A stretch of DNA of 34,889 nucleotides from Clostridia bacterium (GTDB lineage Bacteria; Bacillota; Clostridia; Oscillospirales; Acutalibacteraceae), in assembly GCA_017449935.1 (NCBI GenBank), contig JAFSYP010000076.1, positions 1 to 34,889 on the forward strand, in the 5' to 3' direction. Below, one piece after another: positions 374 through 12,486 of this stretch. The stretch's first letter is position 1. The number at the start of each line of letters is the position of its first letter. The notes beneath the pieces were generated by a model, which saw nothing but the letters and a program-made list of their open reading frames with translations, had not been told where the DNA came from and ran no database searches. Made by a program: the position numbers and the translations under genes.

Positions 374-1309
374 TCAAGCGGCTTCTGTCGGCGCCAGATC
401 CTTATACTGGTACACGCGCACGTAATCCACGCGGAATTCCACCGGCCAGTTCCGCTTCGGCGTGTGCGTGATCTTGCCCGTACCGTGGCGGTCTGCGTCC
501 GCGACGCCGTCTTTGCCGGCGATCTCCACGCTGAGGATCAGATGCTCCGGGTTGTCCGAAACGCCGCCGGTCGATATGCGGTCGCACTCGACGTCGTTGA
601 TATAGAAGATATACTCGTCCTTGTTCCATTCAAGACCGTAGGTATTGTATTGCGTATAGGGGTCGTTCTGCAGGAAGAATTTGCCGATGGAGTCGCCCTT
701 GGAATCTGCGGCGTAGCCATCGTAATGGATGCCGCCGATCACGGCGTCCATGCCGCGCCAGTGATCCTTGTAGTACATCGACTCGAACACATCGACCTCC
801 GTGCCGTCGTCGCCGAAGCCGTCGACGTTGAACACGCCTTCGTTCATCATCCAGAAGGACGACCACAGGCCTGTCCCGGCCGGCAGGATGCAGCGCACCT
901 CAAAGTAGCCGTAGCACTGCTCGAACTTTCCGCGCGTATTGATCTCGCCCGTGTAGTAGCCGGGGAGGTACGGATCGAAGTTGATGTTGTCGTGCCACTT
1001 CTCGTAGTAGCGGTTCTCGAGCGGCGTGTCCAGGTATTCCGCGCGGATGACGAGATCGCCGTCCTCGACCGACACCATGTCCTCGTGCCAGTAGCCGCCT
1101 TTACGCATCGTTTCCCACCAGCTGTTGCCCCACTTGGACTTGTCCAGCGTGTCGCCGTCAAACTCGTCGCGCCACGTCAAGGTAAACTTGCTTCTGTCGA
1201 GCGTCTGCCCCTGCGGCGTGCGCGGCATATTCAGCCGCAGGCAAAGGTTCGGCGCAGCCGCCGTGACGAATGCCAGAAAGACGTACAGGATCTTTTTCAA
1301 GTGTTTCAT
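374..1309 (-). CDS. Exported glycoside hydrolase family 16 protein (beta-glucanase type)
   Basis: A 311-aa protein of the GH16 fold, a family of retaining endo-beta-glycanases acting on laminarin, lichenan, carrageenan and similar glycans. The catalytic signature ExDxxE is present as EVDVFE at residues 171-176 (nucleophile E171, acid/base E176). Residues around 45-60 (WRDEFDGDTLDKSKW) match the start of the GH16 beta-sandwich. A basic, hydrophobic N-terminus (residues 1-25) looks like a signal peptide or anchor without a clear lipobox, so it should act outside the membrane. The ATG follows a GGGAGGAG ribosome site inside the end of the upstream GH16 gene, three bases apart, so the two are translated from one message. 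The substrate cannot be read from sequence. Confidence 0.88.
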   Translation of the reverse strand: MKHLKKILYVFLAFVTAAAPNLCLRLNMPRTPQGQTLDRSKFTLTWRDEFDGDTLDKSKWGNSWWETMRKGGYWHEDMVSVEDGDLVIRAEYLDTPLENRYYEKWHDNINFDPYLPGYYTGEINTRGKFEQCYGYFEVRCILPAGTGLWSSFWMMNEGVFNVDGFGDDGTEVDVFESMYYKDHWRGMDAVIGGIHYDGYAADSKGDSIGKFFLQNDPYTQYNTYGLEWNKDEYIFYINDVECDRISTGGVSDNPEHLILSVEIAGKDGVADADRHGTGKITHTPKRNWPVEFRVDYVRVYQYKDLAPTEAA

Positions 1310-1312
1310 TTT

Positions 1313-2113
1313 TTATTGCTCCTCCCATATCTTGACCCAGTCTACCGCAAATTCCGCTGAGGCGCCGGGCTGCTGCTTGATTTTTTCGGGGATCTCCAGC
1401 GATACGATCACTTCTTCCGGGATCTGCGAAACGCCTTTGCCGAAGCTCGTGCGTCCCGACTCGACGCCGTCGATGTAGAAGATGTATTCGCTCTGCGTCC
1501 ATTTCAGACCGAACGTGTGGAACGAACCGTACAGATCGTCCACGTAGTATTTGCCGACACGGCAGCGGTCGATCCTGTCCTCCAGAACGTCCGTCCCGTT
1601 GCAGTAGACCGTGGACTTGACGGCGCTCGCCAGCCTGCCGGGGAAATACTTCGCCTCCATCGCCTCGAAAATGTCGATCTCCGCACCGCCGACGCCGCCG
1701 GCAGAGACCGCATGATCGTAGGACGTGCCGCACTGCAGCCAGAACGCGCTCCAGAAATCCTTGTCGCGGCAGCAGCGGCAGCAGATCTCAAAATAGCCGT
1801 TTTGGTATTTCTGCCGCAGAGCGACCATGCCGGCATACCAACCCGCGCCGTATGCGCCGTCCTCGAGATATTCGGCGCGCAGGATCAGCTTGCCGTCTTC
1901 GAGACGCACCTGGCTTTCCGCGTTGTAGCCCGCGCGGCGTTCGCCGAGGGCGCGGTGATACCACACGGACGTGTCCAGCGTATCGGCGTCGAATTCATCC
2001 TCGAACACGAGCGTATAGCCGTCGAGAGAGAGCTTTTCTCCCTTCGGCGCGACAGGGAAAAGCGCGTGCATCGCGCCGAGGATCACCATGATCCATGCGA
2101 TGATTTTTTGCAT
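1313..2113 (-). CDS. Second exported GH16 glycoside hydrolase
   Basis: A 266-aa GH16 protein and a tandem paralogue of the gene that follows it. The catalytic ExDxxE motif is EIDIFE at residues 145-150. The N-terminus (about residues 3-20) is hydrophobic and likely a signal anchor. I chose the ATG at 2113 because GGAGG lies 7 nt upstream; the frame stays open to 2158 but that start has no such site. It is clearly diverged from its neighbour. An odd feature is the cysteine group CCRCC at residues 111-115, unusual in an exported beta-sandwich enzyme and not seen in the paralogue. Function is inferred as beta-glycan cleavage with an unknown target. Confidence 0.86.
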   Translation of the reverse strand: MQKIIAWIMVILGAMHALFPVAPKGEKLSLDGYTLVFEDEFDADTLDTSVWYHRALGERRAGYNAESQVRLEDGKLILRAEYLEDGAYGAGWYAGMVALRQKYQNGYFEICCRCCRDKDFWSAFWLQCGTSYDHAVSAGGVGGAEIDIFEAMEAKYFPGRLASAVKSTVYCNGTDVLEDRIDRCRVGKYYVDDLYGSFHTFGLKWTQSEYIFYIDGVESGRTSFGKGVSQIPEEVIVSLEIPEKIKQQPGASAEFAVDWVKIWEEQ

Positions 2114-2171
2114 AGTACCGCCTCCGTTGTTTGATGATTGCATACCGGCGTTCAACATGAACAGCGCGCCG

Positions 2172-2792: not shown

Positions 2793-4088
2793 TCACAGTA
2801 TTTTCGTATCGGCAGGACGTCCCTCATGCAGCGGCGGCAGATAGGACGCAAAGCGATACTGCGGCGTTTCGTCGAATTCGATCTTGACGATCGGCACGTT
2901 CAGGATCGGGTCCGGGTTTTCCTGCGGAACATTTTTCAGCAGGATGCGCGCGCCCTTGTGCTCGAATTCCAGCGGCGTGCCGTCCATGAGCGACACGGCG
3001 CGCGGCGCGGTAGCGAAGCCGCCCAGCGCCATTTGTCCTTTGTACGGAGACCAGATCTTGTTCCACATGTAGACGGTGTTCCCCTTCGTGGAGGAACGCG
3101 AAACGCCGTTCGCCTGATTCCGGTTGCCCTCTGTCTTCTCGAGCTTACCGTATACGGCCTCGCCGTTGACGGCGAGCCACCGGCCGACCTTCGTCAGCGG
3201 TTCGACGACCTCCTGCGGGACGGAACCGTCCGGCATGGGGCCGAAGTTCAGCAGCAGGTTGCCGCCGCGCTCGCAGCACGTTTGCAGCATCCCCAGAATG
3301 CGCTGCGGCGTGTAGCTGTACGGCGCCGCCTGCGCAGAGTCGATATAGCCCCAACTGATGCCGTTGAAGGTCATGCAGGCCTCCCAATCTCGGTCGGCGG
3401 GCGTCAAATGCTCCTCCGGCGTGCCGAAATCCTCCGGGATACGGCTGCGGTCGTTGATGATGATATGCGGCTGGAGCGAGCGCAGATACTGATTGCGCTC
3501 GAGCGAATCCCAACCCTCCCAGTGCTGCATCGGGAGCGCGACGTCGTACCAGAGGACGTCGATCTTACCGTACTGCGTGAGCAGCTCTTCGTTCAGATCG
3601 CGGATGTACTTGGTGAAGCGCAGGCGCGCCTCGTCGCCATACGCGCACCGTCCGCCGTCGGGGTGGTGCCAGTCCATGAGAGAGGAGTAGAAGCCGATCT
3701 TCAGATCGTATTCCCGGCAGGCTTCCACGAATTCCTTCACGATGTCGCGGTGCGGGCCGTAGTTGACGGAATTGAACGGGTTCGCTTTGGAATCCCAAAG
3801 GCTGAAGCCCTCGTGATGCCGCGTCGTCAGCACCATATATTTCGCGCCGGCCTTCTTCGCCAGCGCCGCCCATTCGCGGCAGCAGCCTTCCTTCGGCGCG
3901 AAGGAGTCCGCCAGCTTCTCGTACTCGTCGACGGGGATATTTTCGCAGGCCTGCACCCATTCGTTGCGGCCGACCTGCGCATACAGTCCGTAGTGGACGA
4001 AAATACCGAAGCGCGCTTCGCGCCACCAGCGCATCCGTTCATCGCGCGTGGCGGCGATCTGTTCGAGGTATTCGGGCATCGAGAGCAT
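2793..4088 (-). CDS. Alpha-L-fucosidase, GH29, cytoplasmic
   Basis: A 431-aa GH29 alpha-L-fucosidase, which releases terminal L-fucose with retention. The N-terminal (beta/alpha)8 barrel is recognisable from the family pattern RFGIFVHYGLY (26-36), TTRHHEGFSLWDS (88-100, active-site His pair) and IDVLWYD (176-182, with D182 the expected nucleophile). No signal peptide is present, so it probably acts on imported fucosylated oligosaccharides. The start at 4088 has GGAGG upstream; the frame extends to 4178 but without a site. It is transcribed from its own promoter at 4123-4151. Together with the exported GH16 pair it suggests scavenging of host or plant glycans, though no transporter is in view. 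Confidence 0.9.
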   Translation of the reverse strand: MLSMPEYLEQIAATRDERMRWWREARFGIFVHYGLYAQVGRNEWVQACENIPVDEYEKLADSFAPKEGCCREWAALAKKAGAKYMVLTTRHHEGFSLWDSKANPFNSVNYGPHRDIVKEFVEACREYDLKIGFYSSLMDWHHPDGGRCAYGDEARLRFTKYIRDLNEELLTQYGKIDVLWYDVALPMQHWEGWDSLERNQYLRSLQPHIIINDRSRIPEDFGTPEEHLTPADRDWEACMTFNGISWGYIDSAQAAPYSYTPQRILGMLQTCCERGGNLLLNFGPMPDGSVPQEVVEPLTKVGRWLAVNGEAVYGKLEKTEGNRNQANGVSRSSTKGNTVYMWNKIWSPYKGQMALGGFATAPRAVSLMDGTPLEFEHKGARILLKNVPQENPDPILNVPIVKIEFDETPQYRFASYLPPLHEGRPADTKIL

Positions 4089-4122
4089 AAAGAAGCCTCC
4101 CTTTCTGCGTTGCGATACGTTC

Positions 4123-4151
4123 ATTGTAGCGGCTTTTCGGCAGAAAGTCAA
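4123..4151 (-). promoter_or_regulatory. Promoter of the fucosidase gene
   Basis: On the minus strand TTGACT (4151-4146) and TACAAT (4128-4123) are 17 nt apart. The start would fall near 4116, about 28 nt before the ATG. It lies downstream of the terminator at 4205-4257, so fucosidase expression does not depend on the upstream RNA unit. Confidence 0.75.
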
Positions 4152-4204
4152 TAGGACGCCCATATACAGGACGTCCATAATATATCATAATATATAAGGT
4201 ATAC

Positions 4205-4458
4205 AAAAAAGCAGTACTGTCAGACGCCGGGACGATGGTATCGGACAGAACTGCTTTCGATCATTCACTTTTGACGCGAAACCCTCCTTTCGGACAGTGT
4301 CGGTTGTATTCACTTCGCCGAAGCGAAGGGGGGATGCATCTGCCGCGGACGGAGGGGTAACCGCCCGCGGCTTAAAAATACTCCGGCGCAGAGAAAGGGA
4401 CTGTGTTTTGTGGAGAAAAACAGATCCGCCGGAGGTGAAGCGCCGCAGCGCTTTCAAC
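4205..4458 (-). ncRNA. Candidate structured non-coding RNA, about 254 nt, own promoter and terminator
   Basis: Reading leftwards from an expected start at 4458 there are successive hairpins: 4438-4453 (6 bp, tetraloop); 4381-4388 with 4427-4434 (8 bp); 4342-4352 with 4361-4371 (11 bp including one wobble); 4313-4318 with 4323-4328 (6 bp closing a UUCG tetraloop); a 5-bp CGAAA/TTTCG stem around 4280-4295 with loop GGAGGG; and the terminator 4208-4221 with 4244-4257 followed by T6. The third stem has a G-U pair only on this strand (A-C on the other), and the stable C(UUCG)G loop also exists only on this strand, so the transcribed strand is well supported. No frame in it looks like a protein. 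It does not match the motifs I know for RNase P RNA, SRP RNA, 6S RNA or tmRNA. Confidence 0.65.
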
Positions 4459-4464
4459 AATTTA

Positions 4465-4493
4465 AGTATAGCGGAATAGTTTTTAAGATACAA
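4465..4493 (-). promoter_or_regulatory. Promoter of the structured RNA
   Basis: On the minus strand TTGTAT (4493-4488) and TATACT (4470-4465) are separated by 17 nt, with the first G after the -10 box at 4458. It is back to back with the dnaA promoter about 75 bases away. Confidence 0.65.
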
Positions 4494-4568
4494 GAGATAA
4501 CTCTTTAAGATTTGTTTAAGAATTCAACCGATAGATATTTTAGGAATGGCACCCACTATATAAAGAAG

Positions 4569-4597
4569 TTGAAAACAAGCGTTCGGTGTGGTATAAT
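4569..4597 (+). promoter_or_regulatory. Promoter of the dnaA operon
   Basis: TTGAAA (4569-4574) and the consensus TATAAT (4592-4597) are 17 nt apart. The start near 4604 leaves a leader of about 65 nt before the dnaA ATG. Confidence 0.85.
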
Positions 4598-4668
4598 GAA
4601 TGACGTTATTATGGGTATTTGTCTGTGCCTTTCATGCGCACATTCGGTTGTGTAAAGGGGAAAAGGAA

Positions 4669-5979
4669 ATGAATTCGTTAACAGAATTATGGGAGGCCGT
4701 TTCACGGGTACTTCAAAGCGAAGTAAACGACATTATTTACAAGGTTTGGCTTCAGGATCTGGAATTGACGGAATTCGACGGCAGCACCGTGACGCTTTCG
4801 ACTGTGGAGTTCAAGCGCCCGACTGTGGAAAAGAAGTTCGGCGGCGTGCTGCACGACGCTTTTGAGAAGGCGATCGGGTTTTCGGTCGAGGTCCGTCTGG
4901 TGAGCGCGCAGGCGCAAATGGAAACGCGCTCGATCGAAGAAGTGGAAAAGAGCTTCCACGAGGACAATACGTTCCAGACGTTCGTCGTCGGCTCGTCCAA
5001 TAAGTTCGCCCACGCGGCGGCGCAGGCCGTGGCTGCCAATCCCGGCGGCGCGTACAATCCGCTGTTCATCTACGGGCGCTCAGGTCTGGGCAAGACGCAT
5101 CTGCTCAACGCCATCGCACATGACATCCGGCAGAACAGACCGAATGCGAACGTCCTGTTCACACAGGGGGAGACGTTCACCAATGAGATTGTCCGCGGCA
5201 TCGGGATCGGCCAGAGCGCGATGACCGCTCTGCATGAGAAATACCGCACGGCGGATGTGCTGCTGGTGGACGATATCCAGTTCATCGCGGGCAAGGCTGC
5301 GACGGAAGAGGAGTTTTTCCATACCTTCAATTCCATCACGCAGGCGGGCAATCAGATCGTGCTCACGTCCGACCGCCCGCCCAAGGAGATCGAGACGCTG
5401 GAGGATCGGCTGCGCACCCGCTTTGAGATGGGCCTGATCGCGGACATCCAGCCGCCGGATATCGAAACGCGCATGGCGATCGTCAAGCGCAAGGCGCAGG
5501 CGCTCGATCTGACGCTGTCCGACGACGTCGTACAGTTTATTGCGGACAAGATCAAAAACAACGTGCGTCAGCTGGAAGGCGCCGTCAAGAAGATCAAGGC
5601 AGTCGTGACGATCCACGGGACCACGCCCAATATGACGACCGTGCAGGCGGCCATCAAGGATATCCTTAACGAGGACCGTCCGGAAACGGTGACAGTCGAG
5701 CGGATCATCGACGAAACGGCGCGCACCTTCAACGCCAACGCCGCCGACCTGCGCTCCAAGAAGCGCGACGCGCAGACGTCGCGGATGCGCATGATCGCCA
5801 TGTATGTCATCAGCGATCTGACCGGCATGTCCACAAAGGCGATCGGACAGGCGTTCGGCGGGCGCGATCATTCCACTGTGGTCCACGCGCTGCGCGAGAT
5901 CAAGCGGCAGATGGAAAAGGATTCTTCTCTGCGTGCGACGGTGGCAAACATTTCCAAGAACGTACAGGAATCTGACTGA
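4669..5979 (+). CDS. dnaA: Chromosomal replication initiator protein DnaA
   Basis: A 436-aa DnaA, the AAA+ ATPase that binds DnaA boxes and opens oriC. Domain I spans about residues 1-75, a short linker 76-100, the AAA+ core about 100-320 with Walker A GRSGLGKTH (136-144) and Walker B VDDIQF (D201, D202), and the C-terminal domain IV with the signature GGRDHSTVVHALREI. The start is the ATG at 4669 with AAGGGGAAAAGG upstream; an upstream ATG at 4600 lacks a ribosome site. Unusually, the gene is not followed by dnaN/recF/gyrB but by ftsY 18 nt later. Length and motifs are normal. Confidence 0.97.
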   Translation: MNSLTELWEAVSRVLQSEVNDIIYKVWLQDLELTEFDGSTVTLSTVEFKRPTVEKKFGGVLHDAFEKAIGFSVEVRLVSAQAQMETRSIEEVEKSFHEDNTFQTFVVGSSNKFAHAAAQAVAANPGGAYNPLFIYGRSGLGKTHLLNAIAHDIRQNRPNANVLFTQGETFTNEIVRGIGIGQSAMTALHEKYRTADVLLVDDIQFIAGKAATEEEFFHTFNSITQAGNQIVLTSDRPPKEIETLEDRLRTRFEMGLIADIQPPDIETRMAIVKRKAQALDLTLSDDVVQFIADKIKNNVRQLEGAVKKIKAVVTIHGTTPNMTTVQAAIKDILNEDRPETVTVERIIDETARTFNANAADLRSKKRDAQTSRMRMIAMYVISDLTGMSTKAIGQAFGGRDHSTVVHALREIKRQMEKDSSLRATVANISKNVQESD

Positions 5980-5997
5980 TAATCAAGGAGAAAAGTC

Positions 5998-6969
5998 ATG
6001 GGGCTTTTTCAAAAAATCAACAGCGGACTGAAAAAAACACGCGAGAATATGTCCGCAGCCATCGATACCATGCTTTACGGCAAGGTGGAGATCGACGATA
6101 CCTTCTTCGACGACCTGGAAGAAGTGCTGGTCATGGGCGACGTGGGCATCTACACGGCCGAGGAGATCGTGACGCAGCTGCGTGAACGCGCGCAGAAAGA
6201 GAATCTGCGCACGGCCGAAAAGGTCAAGCGCGCGATCCAGGAGATCGTGGCGGCCATGCTGTCCGGCGGAGAAGAGATGAGTCTCATCACGATGCCGTCG
6301 ATCATCCTTGTCATCGGCGTCAACGGCGTGGGCAAGACGACCAGCATCGGCAAGCTCGCCGCATATTACAAATCGGAAGGAAAAAAGGTGATCCTTGCCG
6401 CGGCAGATACCTTCCGCGCGGCCGCGATCGAGCAGCTTCAGGAGTGGGCGGACCGTGCCGGCGTCGATATGATCAAGCATAAAGAGGGCGCCGATCCGGC
6501 GGCTGTGGTGTTCGACAGCATCGCGGCGGGCAAGGCGCGTAATGCGGACATCATCATCGTGGATACCGCAGGCCGCCTCCACAACAAGAAACACCTGATG
6601 GAAGAGCTTGCCAAGATCTACCGCGTGATCGACCGCGAGCTGCCGTATGCCGACCGCGAGGTGCTGCTGGTGCTGGACGCTACGACGGGACAGAACGCCG
6701 TCAATCAGGCGCGCGAGTTCATGGGCGTTGCGGAGATCACCGGTATTATCCTTACAAAACTCGACGGCACGGCGCGCGGCGGTGTGGTGCTGAATATCAA
6801 GAACGATCTCAAGGTCCCGGTGAAGTTCATCGGTGTGGGCGAAAAGCTCGACGACCTGCAGCCCTTCAGCCCGCAGGCGTTCGCGCAGAGCTTGTTCGAC
6901 GTGGATATGCTCGACCCGAGCCAGGAGAACAGACCGGCGCCTCTGGAAGAGGTTGACGAAATCGTATGA
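5998..6969 (+). CDS. ftsY: Signal recognition particle receptor FtsY
   Basis: A 323-aa SRP GTPase that docks SRP-ribosome complexes at the membrane for co-translational insertion. The NG domain fills nearly the whole protein: N domain about 1-100, G1 loop GVNGVGKTT (107-115), then AADTFRAAAIEQL, the DTAGR loop, TKLDGTARGG and the closing GVGEKLDDLQPF. The long acidic A domain of the E. coli protein is absent, as usual in Firmicutes. GGAGAA lies 8 nt before the ATG. Its last codons overlap the next gene by 4 nt (ATGA). Confidence 0.97.
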   Translation: MGLFQKINSGLKKTRENMSAAIDTMLYGKVEIDDTFFDDLEEVLVMGDVGIYTAEEIVTQLRERAQKENLRTAEKVKRAIQEIVAAMLSGGEEMSLITMPSIILVIGVNGVGKTTSIGKLAAYYKSEGKKVILAAADTFRAAAIEQLQEWADRAGVDMIKHKEGADPAAVVFDSIAAGKARNADIIIVDTAGRLHNKKHLMEELAKIYRVIDRELPYADREVLLVLDATTGQNAVNQAREFMGVAEITGIILTKLDGTARGGVVLNIKNDLKVPVKFIGVGEKLDDLQPFSPQAFAQSLFDVDMLDPSQENRPAPLEEVDEIV

Positions 6970-7574
6970 ATTTCATTTTAGCGACCCATAATCTGAAAAA
7001 GCGCGAAGAGCTTGCGCGGATCCTTGCGCCGCTGGGCGTCCGTGTTCTCACGGCCGAGGAGGCCGGCGTGACGCTCACGGACGTGGAGGAGACCGGCACG
7101 ACCTTTGAGGAAAACGCCGTACTCAAAGCCGAGAGCGGCTGCCGCGAGAGCGGGATGCCGTGCGTCGCGGACGACTCCGGACTGGAGGTCGACGCGCTGG
7201 GCGGCGCGCCGGGCGTTTACTCCGCACGCTATGCCGGCGCGCACGGAAACGACGGAAAGAACATCGACAAGCTCCTGGATGCGCTGCGGGACGTGCCGCG
7301 GGAGGCGCGGGGCGCGCGGTTCGTTTGTACGGTGTGCTGCGCATTTCCGGACGGCACGCGGATCGTGACGCGCGGTGTGTGCGGCGGTTCGATCGCCTTT
7401 GCGCGCAGCGGTGACGGCGGCTTCGGGTACGATCCGGTGTTCCTGCCGGACGACGCGCTGGGACAGTCGATGGCGTCGCTGTCCGACGCGCAGAAGGATG
7501 CGATCAGCCATCGCAGACGCGCGCTGGAAAAGCTCGCACAGAAACTTCGGGAGAAAGGGATCGGAAACGCATGA
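6966..7574 (+). CDS. rdgB: XTP/dITP diphosphatase (RdgB/HAM1 family)
   Basis: A 202-aa enzyme that hydrolyses non-canonical purine triphosphates (dITP, XTP) to the monophosphate and pyrophosphate, keeping them out of DNA and RNA. The family start ILATHNLKK (residues 4-12) gives the T-x-N-x-x-K nucleotide site, FEENAVLKA lies at 47-55, and VADDSGLEVDALGG at 67-80 contains the general base D70. The C-terminal SHRRRALEKL segment is also characteristic. Start and stop overlap both neighbours by 4 nt, so it is translationally coupled inside the dnaA operon. Confidence 0.95.
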   Translation: MNFILATHNLKKREELARILAPLGVRVLTAEEAGVTLTDVEETGTTFEENAVLKAESGCRESGMPCVADDSGLEVDALGGAPGVYSARYAGAHGNDGKNIDKLLDALRDVPREARGARFVCTVCCAFPDGTRIVTRGVCGGSIAFARSGDGGFGYDPVFLPDDALGQSMASLSDAQKDAISHRRRALEKLAQKLREKGIGNA

Positions 7575-7969
7575 CTGGAAAAGAACGCGCAAAATACCGC
7601 GCTGAGGCGAACGGACTGGAGCCGGTCTTTCAGATCGGCAAGGGCGGCGTGACCGAAGCGGTGCTCTCACAGGTGGAAGACGCCCTCGACGCGCGGGAAC
7701 TGATCAAGGTGAAGGCGCTGCTGGAGACGATCCCGGAAAGTCCCAAGGAAATGGCGCAGAAGATCGCCGCGCGCACGAAGGCCGACGTGATCCAGGTCAT
7801 CGGCGGCGCGATCGTGCTGTATCGGGAAAACCCGGAGCTGCGGCAGGCCGAAAAGGAAAAAGAAAAGCGCAAAAAAGAAATTGCAAAAAAACAGAGAGAA
7901 AAGGAAAGAATGCAGGCAAATGCGGGAAAACGCGCGCCGAGAGCTTACGACGTGCGCGGAAAGAAATAA
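7571..7969 (+). CDS. yhbY: YhbY/CRM-domain RNA-binding protein (ribosome assembly factor)
   Basis: A 132-aa protein. Residues 1-95 form the CRM (YhbY) domain with the conserved QIGKGGVTEAV (21-31, GxxG-type RNA-binding loop) and VIQVIGGAIVLYRENPEL near 74-91. YhbY binds pre-50S particles in E. coli. The remaining ~37 residues are an almost wholly charged Lys/Glu/Arg tail, longer than in the bare-domain homologues I know, which may add RNA affinity. The ATG overlaps the rdgB stop by 4 nt. No clear terminator follows before the smpB promoter. Confidence 0.88.
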   Translation: MTGKERAKYRAEANGLEPVFQIGKGGVTEAVLSQVEDALDARELIKVKALLETIPESPKEMAQKIAARTKADVIQVIGGAIVLYRENPELRQAEKEKEKRKKEIAKKQREKERMQANAGKRAPRAYDVRGKK

Positions 7970-8550: not shown

Positions 8551-8905
8551 GGGGATGAAAGGATTTCGACGGGGGTTTGGAGGCGCGATCAGCGAGCAGC
8601 GGTGCGGAACCGCTTTAAAAGCCGCAGTTTATTTAAAAATAAACGACAACAACACTGTTCTTAAAGCTGCTTAAGTTTTAAGCGGCCGTCTTTACCGGGA
8701 GGACCGCGGCCCGGATAAAGGCGTCGATCAGCGGTGAACGTGCACGGAGAAGCGCGCCGTACTCCGTCATGCACAACGGCGCTACCGACCGGGAAAGCGT
8801 GTCCTTGCGCGTTCCCGCGGGGGAATCCCAAATCATGGACTACGCTCGTAGAACGTCGCGAGGATGAGCTTTCGGACGCGGTTTCGATTACCGCCATCTC
8901 CACCA
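8551..8905 (+). ncRNA. ssrA: Transfer-messenger RNA (tmRNA)
   Basis: A 355-nt one-piece tmRNA. The 5' end GGGGATG pairs with CATCTCC (8895-8901) to give the acceptor stem, followed by discriminator A and encoded CCA (8903-8905). The T-arm (GGTTTCGATTACC) and the 5' GGATTTCGACGGGG block are typical. The tag frame ends NDNNTVLKAA with TAA at 8672-8674 and probably resumes at GCA 8624, giving a 16-residue tag AVYLKINDNNTVLKAA. The stop lies in a hairpin (GCTGCTTAA with TTAAGCGGC), as is usual for helix 5. No convincing separate promoter is seen in the 50 nt after smpB, so co-transcription and processing are likely. Confidence 0.95.
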
Positions 8906-11303: not shown

Positions 11304-11332
11304 TTGAAAAACTAATATTCGCGTGATATAAT
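11304..11332 (+). promoter_or_regulatory. Promoter of the carAB operon
   Basis: TTGAAA (11304-11309) and TATAAT (11327-11332) are 17 nt apart, with a start near 11339 and a leader of about 50 nt. There is no room for a PyrR-type attenuator between the promoter and the ATG. Confidence 0.85.
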
Positions 11333-11388
11333 ACTGCGTGAATGTATATTCATACAATCCAAAACACGTATCCGGGAGGGAAAGCAGT

Positions 11389-12486
11389 ATGCTGTCCGGT
11401 ACAAACAGAAAACTGATTCTCGAAGACGGCAGCGTTTACGAGGGATATGCCTTCGGCGCGTCGGGCGAAAAAATCGTGGAGATCGTATTCAATACGTCCT
11501 TGGTGGGGTACCAGGAGATCCTGTCCGATCCGTCCTATACGGATCAGGGCGTGGTGATGACGTATCCGCTGATCGGCAACTACGGTATGGCCGACGACGA
11601 TTATGAGACCGAAACGCCGACCATCGGCGCGCTGATCGTCCGCGAATACTGCGGCGAACCGTCCAACTTCCGCAGCACGCGCACGCTGGGCGACGTGATG
11701 ACGCAGTACGGGATCGTCGGGCTCGGCGGCGTGGATACGCGCAGTCTTACGCGTCACATCCGTAACTTCGGCTCCTGCAAGGGCTGGATCACAGATCTTG
11801 ACACGCCGACCGACGCGACGCTTCTGCGGCTGCGTGCGGCGGAGCTTCCGCGGGATTCGGTCAGCCGCGTCAGCCGCAGACAGACCGTGCGCTATGCCGG
11901 TGAGAACGCCGCCTATCATGTTGTTGCGGTAGACTGCGGCATGAAGCAGAACATCGTCCGTTCCATGCAGCGCAAGGGCTGCGATGTGACGGTCGTGCCG
12001 TGGAACACGGACGCCGCGGCAATTGCGGCTCTGCATCCGGACGGCGTATTTCTGTCGAACGGCCCCGGCGATCCGACGGACGTGCCGGAGCTGATCGAAA
12101 CGGTGCGGCAGCTCATCGGTCGGTTTCCCTTCTTCGGGATCTGTCTCGGCCACCAGATCCTTTCGCTTGCATACGGTGCGAAAACCTATAAGCTCAAGTT
12201 CGGACACCGCGGCGGGAACCATCCGGTCAAGGATCTCGATACCGACAAGCTGGAGATCACCTCGCAGAACCATTCCTATGCGGTGGATATGGACAGCCTC
12301 TCCGCCACGCCGCTGCGCGTGACGCATATCAATCTGTTGGACAATACTGTGGAAGGCGTCGCCTGTGCGCGGGACAAGGCGTTCGGCGTGCAGTACCATC
12401 CGGAAAGCGCGCCCGGTCCGCAGGACAGCGCGTACCTGTTCGACCGCTTTATCGCGCTGATGAAGGAGGCGAGAAACGATGCCTAA
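11389..12486 (+). CDS. carA: Carbamoyl-phosphate synthase small (glutaminase) subunit
   Basis: A 365-aa CarA, which hydrolyses glutamine and passes ammonia to CarB for carbamoyl phosphate (pyrimidine and arginine synthesis). The N-terminal CPSase domain covers about residues 1-150. The C-terminal class I amidotransferase has SNGPGDP (223-229), [10 protein letters not shown] with catalytic C252, and [14 protein letters not shown] with H337 and E339. The start at 11389 has GGGAGG 9 nt upstream. The 3' end overlaps carB by 8 nt, so the subunits are translationally coupled. Confidence 0.97.

Follow-up and report, generated by a model that had tools for sequence, protein, structure and literature searches.

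The interval between dnaA and an alpha-L-fucosidase gene in an uncultured gut bacterium of the Clostridia raises the question of whether it holds a gene of its own and, if so, what that gene does. It belongs to a window of 34,889 nucleotides (nt), the whole stretch of DNA analysed here, which corresponds to contig C35 of a 2.95-Mb genome (G000). The original prediction placed an independent structured RNA gene at positions 4205-4458 on the minus strand, adjoining dnaA, and this reading is well supported by the comparison with relatives, since the sequence is conserved, its stems covary, it has a -10 element and a terminator of its own, its downstream neighbour changes, no frame is open throughout and no Rfam family matches it. 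Comparison of the homologues shows that the RNA is conserved, that its helices covary, that it ends in a terminator of its own and that its promoter carries three half-sites whose spacing hardly varies. The best reading, which we regard as moderately probable, is that of a base-pairing small RNA (sRNA) that would act in trans under the control of a two-component system.

Homologues were sought with blastn across 148 relatives and with two covariance models, R1 built from five sequences and R2 from all seven. Blastn matched eight genomes, namely the own genome, G002, G003, G004 and G005 with long matches and three others with short ones (28 nt in G009, at a site elsewhere in that genome, 22 nt in G047 and 25 nt in G072). 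Two diverged copies, in G009 and G007, were spotted by reading the regions upstream of dnaA, and R1, in which they had not been used, recovered both among 69 loci (55.1 and 35.6 bits; E 2.5e-15 and 3.4e-9), both having already been seen by eye. As scored by R2, the RNA stands upstream of dnaA in 7 of the 11 genus genomes (117-228 bits), where other sense-strand matches reach at most 21.7 bits, and its dnaA neighbourhood is conserved as far as these genomes indicate. It appears as a single copy in its own genome, the next matches scoring at most 9.9 bits with R1 and 15.7 with R2, once a match to the opposite strand of its terminator (26 bits) is set aside. Neither model found a copy in G001, G006, G008 and G010; the weak matches in G001 (21.7 bits) and G006 (19.2 bits) were read and dismissed by eye, and weaker ones went unread. 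R2 was also run, with stricter filters and E up to 0.1, on 398 family genomes, of which 16 were matched: G000, G002 and G007 at no less than 117 bits and the other 13 at no more than 25. Six of these 13 were read, four of them aligned, and they looked chance-like by eye, while the remaining seven were left unread; this search lists no further carrier. Since only those three score convincingly among the 398 genomes, the RNA family is, by these searches, narrow in range. Its presence seems to track dnaA similarity roughly, the identity of dnaA to that of the window being 67-87% in the six other carriers and 63-67% in the four non-carriers.

The failure of the original prediction to match any known RNA family was repeated in a cmscan-type check against Rfam 15. 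At gathering thresholds, only a transfer-messenger RNA (tmRNA) and a tRNA were matched in the window and nothing at the RNA, RNase P, signal recognition particle RNA, 6S RNA and riboswitches included; three matches over 4100-4600 with E up to 10 were all far below their cut-offs, and the loci L011-L016, which hold the six homologues and amount to 25,000 bases, gave 0 matches at gathering thresholds. A phage and plasmid search with the RNA gave no match, and no title or abstract start reporting it was found in a literature search from which subscription journals were mostly missing. The absence of a protein frame, likewise claimed earlier, holds in 7 of 7 homologues: all frames of the seven RNAs, taken with 30 nt on each side, contain at least one stop and none is open throughout, the longest open stretches being of 98-122 codons in G000, G003, G004 and G009 and of 65-80 in G002, G005 and G007. 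A frame of 102 amino acids at 4185-4493 was rejected as a coding gene because it begins upstream of the predicted 5' end of the RNA.

Covariation supports the structure. In the R2 alignment, 18 of 42 pairs are altered on both sides, against 7.1±1.8 in shuffles, 0 of 500 of which reach 18, and 0-9 in slid structures; the alignment was fitted to the structure, which biases the count in its favour, and some misregistered rows (G005, G009 and G007 in H3, H4 or the terminator) bring it down. Of the 269 cells of this alignment, 90.3% are paired. A separate helix test gave an own value of 1.00 by construction, because its arms had been hand-picked to pair, and the covariation count was therefore used instead. 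H1 was excluded from R2; in the minimum free energy (MFE) structure of the window RNA only its five inner pairs form, and at its site in the relatives a hairpin of differing sequence can be drawn in 7 of 7 with hand-picked arms. The 5' end of the RNA was placed by us 12 nt past the first base of the -10, and the 3' end lies within the run of U at 4205. Across the seven homologues the stems vary whereas the exposed loops and linkers persist: GCAUCCC, UCGUCCCG and AGGAGG occur in all seven, ACCCCU of the H3 loop in six (it is missing in G007) and ACCGACA in five, and UCCC is found in the linker and terminator loop of all seven and in the H2 loop of four (G000, G004, G007 and G009). The C-rich motifs, candidate anti-Shine-Dalgarno sequences, are conserved and fall in predicted loops and linkers.

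The original prediction chose the RNA strand from a G-U pair, which would be A-C on the other strand, and from a C(UUCG)G tetraloop. Both are present in the sequence, together with the five hairpins that it described and a 14-base-pair terminator stem (9+5) followed by six U. The first argument extends to the realigned set of homologues, where 28 G-U against 11 A-C cells support the minus strand as the RNA strand, but the tetraloop is unshared, loop 4 being different in the six relatives. The minus-strand RNA has an MFE of -103.2 kcal/mol against -74.5 (standard deviation 4.35) in 200 shuffles (z -6.6, 0 of 200 as low); the plus strand also folds better than its shuffles (z -3.8, 0 of 200 as low). 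The raw MFE is lower on the opposite strand in 6 of 7 homologues, therefore energy alone does not decide the strand. The same counts bear on the possibility that the locus is a DNA-level element of a replication origin, made of inverted repeats or DnaA boxes, and not an RNA. Its place beside dnaA, a sign change of the GC skew near 3-4 kb and the occurrence of TTCTCCACA at 4409-4417, inside the conserved H2 loop and one mismatch from TTATCCACA, are in line with such an element. Nevertheless, the G-U excess, the -10 and U-tailed terminator that flank the structure in 7 of 7 homologues, and the lack of an excess of DnaA boxes (5 in the window where 3.3 are expected, with 24 of 100 shuffles holding as many) argue against an origin element, which we consider extremely unlikely.

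The fucosidase gene downstream could have the RNA as its 5' leader or attenuator, in that the RNA lies upstream on the same strand and ends in a terminator. This explanation is scarcely credible, since a promoter-like site intervenes between the RNA and the fucosidase gene, Rfam holds no riboswitch that matches, and G003 and G005 keep the RNA but carry other genes downstream, the fucosidase following it in five homologues (tblastn). The gene in G005 we take to be phosphoribosyltransferase-like, and the contig of G003 ends 158 nt past the RNA, with only the start of the downstream gene present. The changing downstream gene indicates that the RNA goes with the region upstream of dnaA and hence is no leader.

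The minus-strand promoter of the original prediction has its elements in place, but the -35 TTGTAT matches TTGACA by eye at only three of six positions, and a consensus scan of the window lists neither the promoter nor the terminator of the RNA. Such a weak -35 is compatible with a promoter that needs an activator. In 6 of 7 homologues the three half-sites precede the -10 at distances of 50, 39 and 17 nt, counted from the first base of each; in G007, whose first half-site is TTTAA and which has two extra half-sites further upstream, these distances are 50, 40 and 17 nt. The position of the -10 relative to the RNA start is so by construction, whereas the distances from box to -10 are not. A composite pattern, TTAA-N7-TTAA-N16/20-TTAA-N10/14-TANNNT, was searched with the reversed pattern as control, and in G000 it gave 12 matches at 10 places against 0, although it had been written after seven of the ten places had been seen. 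These places lie on contigs C4, C35, C52, C53, C79, C88, C111 and C119, with half-sites 11 and about 22 base pairs apart. Over the 11 genus genomes there are 59 matches against 7 reversed (47 against 7 without G000), or 48 against 3 in the seven carriers and 11 against 4 in the four non-carriers, counts in which some places are included twice and five matches are the promoter of the RNA itself in relatives. By eye, five of six places with the two-box pattern share this layout ahead of a -10.

The composite promoter likely marks a two-component regulon, as judged from the genes that follow it. On contig C88 of G000 a site precedes, with a short frame between, a gene for an OmpR-type response regulator (receiver and Trans_reg_C domains) with a histidine kinase; the box lies 136-277 nt ahead of the regulator gene in G000, G002 and G003, the orthologues in G003 and G002 being 82% and 74% identical, and for that in G005 (73%) none is listed. 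Other sites stand ahead of a phosphoenolpyruvate-synthase-like gene (774 bits, under the NCBIfam cut-off of 850), a desulfoferrodoxin gene (PF01880, 78.5 bits, under the cut-off of the best NCBIfam model, with a short frame between), a gene for a protein with PPC and repeat domains, and putative lipoprotein or membrane genes, the signal and membrane character of these secreted-looking proteins having been judged by eye. A phosphate regulon was rejected, as none of the box-bearing genes read looked by eye like pst or pho.

Therefore, we hypothesize that an OmpR-type response regulator activates the RNA, the best candidate being the two-component system on C88, whose own gene bears the box, and that exposed C-rich motifs (the H2 loop, the H3 loop, the GCAUCCC linker and UCGUCCCG of the terminator loop) would pair in trans with several mRNAs at their G-rich ribosome-binding sites, blocking translation. 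Previous studies offer precedents. In PMC4132741, LhrC of Listeria is reported to be controlled by LisRK by the same logic, which was proved there, and Hfq to be dispensable for the effect of LhrC on lapB. LhrC-type sRNAs are marked by several similar copies in a genome and by induction under envelope stress via their two-component system. The streptococcal csRNAs combine the response regulator CiaR, TTTAAG-N5-TTTAAG repeats and anti-Shine-Dalgarno stretches (PMC3091779 and PMC8186281), the former defining them by NTTAAG-N5-TTTAAG, oriented with the promoter and 10 nt upstream of the -10. In the best reading the present RNA would work like either, yet it is neither. LhrC1-5 are five copies, whereas here one copy carries five hairpins, with putative control and pairing; unlike in the csRNAs, the repeat is on the opposite strand, 50 and 39 nt upstream of the -10, and a third half-site is present at 17 nt; and the RNA has 254 nt against 50-218 nt in the csRNA table of PMC8186281.

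Besides the late writing of the composite pattern, several observations weigh against this hypothesis. The exact two-box pattern alone is unenriched in G000 (6 against 4 reversed). The closest match of the response regulator in the carriers G007, G004 and G009 is only 65, 59 and 48% identical, while the non-carriers G006 and G010 have a 64% match. In these two, boxes also lie ahead of other response regulators (40-51% identity), therefore the box may serve more than one regulator. No target was found among 381 leaders taken from 434,181 bases of G000 with a simple gene finder of our own making, and many leaders would pair with the C-rich segments through chance alone. The best match of the H3 loop, a 13-nt complement in the L162 leader of a gene at 11331-11996, presumably scpB, was rejected because the relatives do not preserve it: in the remaining five genomes that have H3, the pairing at that site is shorter or mismatched. 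No Hfq match was obtained in the own genome, which is 87% complete, by a search with which 5 of 14 control genomes do give one.

The conserved GAAAGGAGG admits another explanation, in which it would hold a protein together with the C-rich loops, or would act as a decoy for the anti-Shine-Dalgarno of 16S rRNA. That AGGAGG occurs in 7 of 7 homologues, with no common start codon behind it on reading, agrees with this. On the other hand, no tool result indicates a protein, CsrA not having been searched for, and C-rich loops are described as typical of base-pairing sRNAs in PMC4132741; we hold a protein-binding or decoy role to be unlikely, while giving it some weight.

The original prediction also speculated on a role in dnaA or replication control, and a role in dnaA control is weakly supported: the position stands, since the RNA adjoins dnaA in 7 of 7 homologues, but the complementarity is weak and post hoc, and the shared promoter points elsewhere. 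As a trans regulator of dnaA, which we find decidedly improbable, the RNA would pair through its ACAACCG linker and C-rich motifs with the dnaA leader (CGGUUGUGUAAAGGGG), block its translation and couple stress to replication. The ACCG linker ranks the dnaA leader of its own genome 14 of 382 in G000, 3 in G003, 14 in G002, 34 in G004, 89 in G005, 20 in G009 and 144 in G007 (16 of 381 when G000 is taken alone), a complementarity across seven genomes that is suggestive and post hoc, as the linker, one of five segments tested, was picked with its complementarity already known, the genomes do not count as independent and the background leaders all come from G000. On reading, this pairing is shorter in G002 and G004, and no compensating change makes up for the loss. 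For the H3 loop the dnaA leader stands at rank 7 of 382 in G005 and 10 in G009, whereas the remaining four genomes that have H3 give ranks of 140-179, and in G000 the ranks of 381 are 66 for H2, 156 for H3, 169 for the GCAUCCC linker, 190 for the terminator loop and 287 for the GGAGG linker. Shuffled leaders form a duplex with the whole RNA as low as that of the dnaA leader in 40 of 200 cases for G000, 155 for G003, 44 for G002, 15 for G004, 132 for G009, 197 for G005 and 73 for G007. The box lies between the promoters of the RNA and dnaA, the -35 of the latter being at 4569, and a fuller proposal, very improbable in our view, is that the RNA would link a two-component sensor to replication, with the regulator bound between the divergent promoters and raising the RNA, the RNA lowering DnaA synthesis by way of its ACCG linker and C-rich motifs, and initiation slowing under stress. 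Like ArrA, the dnaA antisense RNA of Bacillus subtilis, the RNA is small and would be transcribed away from dnaA out of its upstream region. ArrA overlaps the dnaA 5' untranslated region according to PMC12112137, whereas the RNA here would start upstream of the dnaA promoter, with no overlap of the dnaA transcript; with its 5' end at about 4458 and the predicted dnaA -10 ending at 4597, the two transcripts would diverge. Instead of a role in dnaA or replication control, the promoter that the RNA shares with what is likely a two-component regulon suggests an sRNA acting in trans.

Features of the RNA locus and its neighbours in the window (nucleotide positions; n/7, homologues with the motif)
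Feature	Position	Strand	Basis
Structured RNA, 254 nt	4205..4458	-	fold z, presence in 7/11 genus genomes, covariation
Putative response-regulator box, direct repeat CTTAAA-N5-CTTAAA (plus strand TTTAAG-N5-TTTAAG)	4504..4520	-	homologue spacing, pattern searches
RNA promoter TTGTAT-N17-TATACT, third CTTAA half-site just downstream of -35	4465..4493	-	sequence; third half-site 7/7
Hairpin H1, UGAA-A-GCGC/GCGCUUCA	4436..4456	-	outer UGAA/UUCA outside MFE
Hairpin H2, CUCCGGCG/CGCCGGAG, large pyrimidine-rich loop with UUUUUCUCCA	4381..4434	-	double-sided changes in 5/8 pairs
Hairpin H3, GC-rich stem, C-rich loop UUACCCCU	4342..4371	-	ACCCCU 6/7
Linker GCAUCCCCCC	4328..4337	-	GCAUCCC 7/7
Hairpin H4, CUUCGC-UUCG-GCGAAG	4313..4328	-	double-sided changes in 3/9 model pairs
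Linker ACAACCGACA ... GAAAGGAGG, Shine-Dalgarno-like end	4283..4307	-	AGGAGG 7/7, ACCGACA 5/7
Intrinsic terminator hairpin, loop AUCGUCCCG, U6 tail	4205..4257	-	UCGUCCCG 7/7; double-sided changes in 8/17 pairs
Promoter-like site of fucosidase gene, TTGACT-N17-TACAAT	4123..4151	-	consensus scan
Alpha-L-fucosidase gene, outside RNA unit	2793..4088	-	Pfam PF01120; neighbour differs in G003, G005
dnaA, divergent neighbour in seven homologues	4669..5979	+	Pfam PF00308, PF08299

Other features of the window were observed alongside. An AT-rich block beginning GTATACCTTATATA lies at 4180-4204, right after the RNA terminator, and is similar in G002, G003, G004 and G005. The inverted repeat GGACGTCC...GGGCGTCC at 4154-4176, upstream of the fucosidase -35, is listed by the scan as terminator-like and may be an operator. 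Two adjoining GH16-family genes (374-2158, minus strand) near the fucosidase gene perhaps form with it a small carbohydrate-degradation cluster. The usual gene order after dnaA is dnaN-recF; here (4669-7969) the genes that come after dnaA have SRP54 (FtsY-like), Ham1 and CRS1_YhbY domains instead. The tmRNA gene occupies 8551-8905, with the tag DNNTVLKAA, and a tRNA-Gly(CCC) gene is at 68-141 on the minus strand.

Taken on its sequence evidence, the locus appears to hold an sRNA family that is real, new, restricted in distribution and of a kind already familiar. To our knowledge, few regulatory RNAs have been described in such uncultured gut Clostridia, to which the finding adds an RNA family that has no Rfam entry and comes with covariation support and a promoter code. 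With this code the sequence allows a regulon, along with a candidate sensor, to be predicted, and the link to dnaA, if true, would be a new route of replication control.
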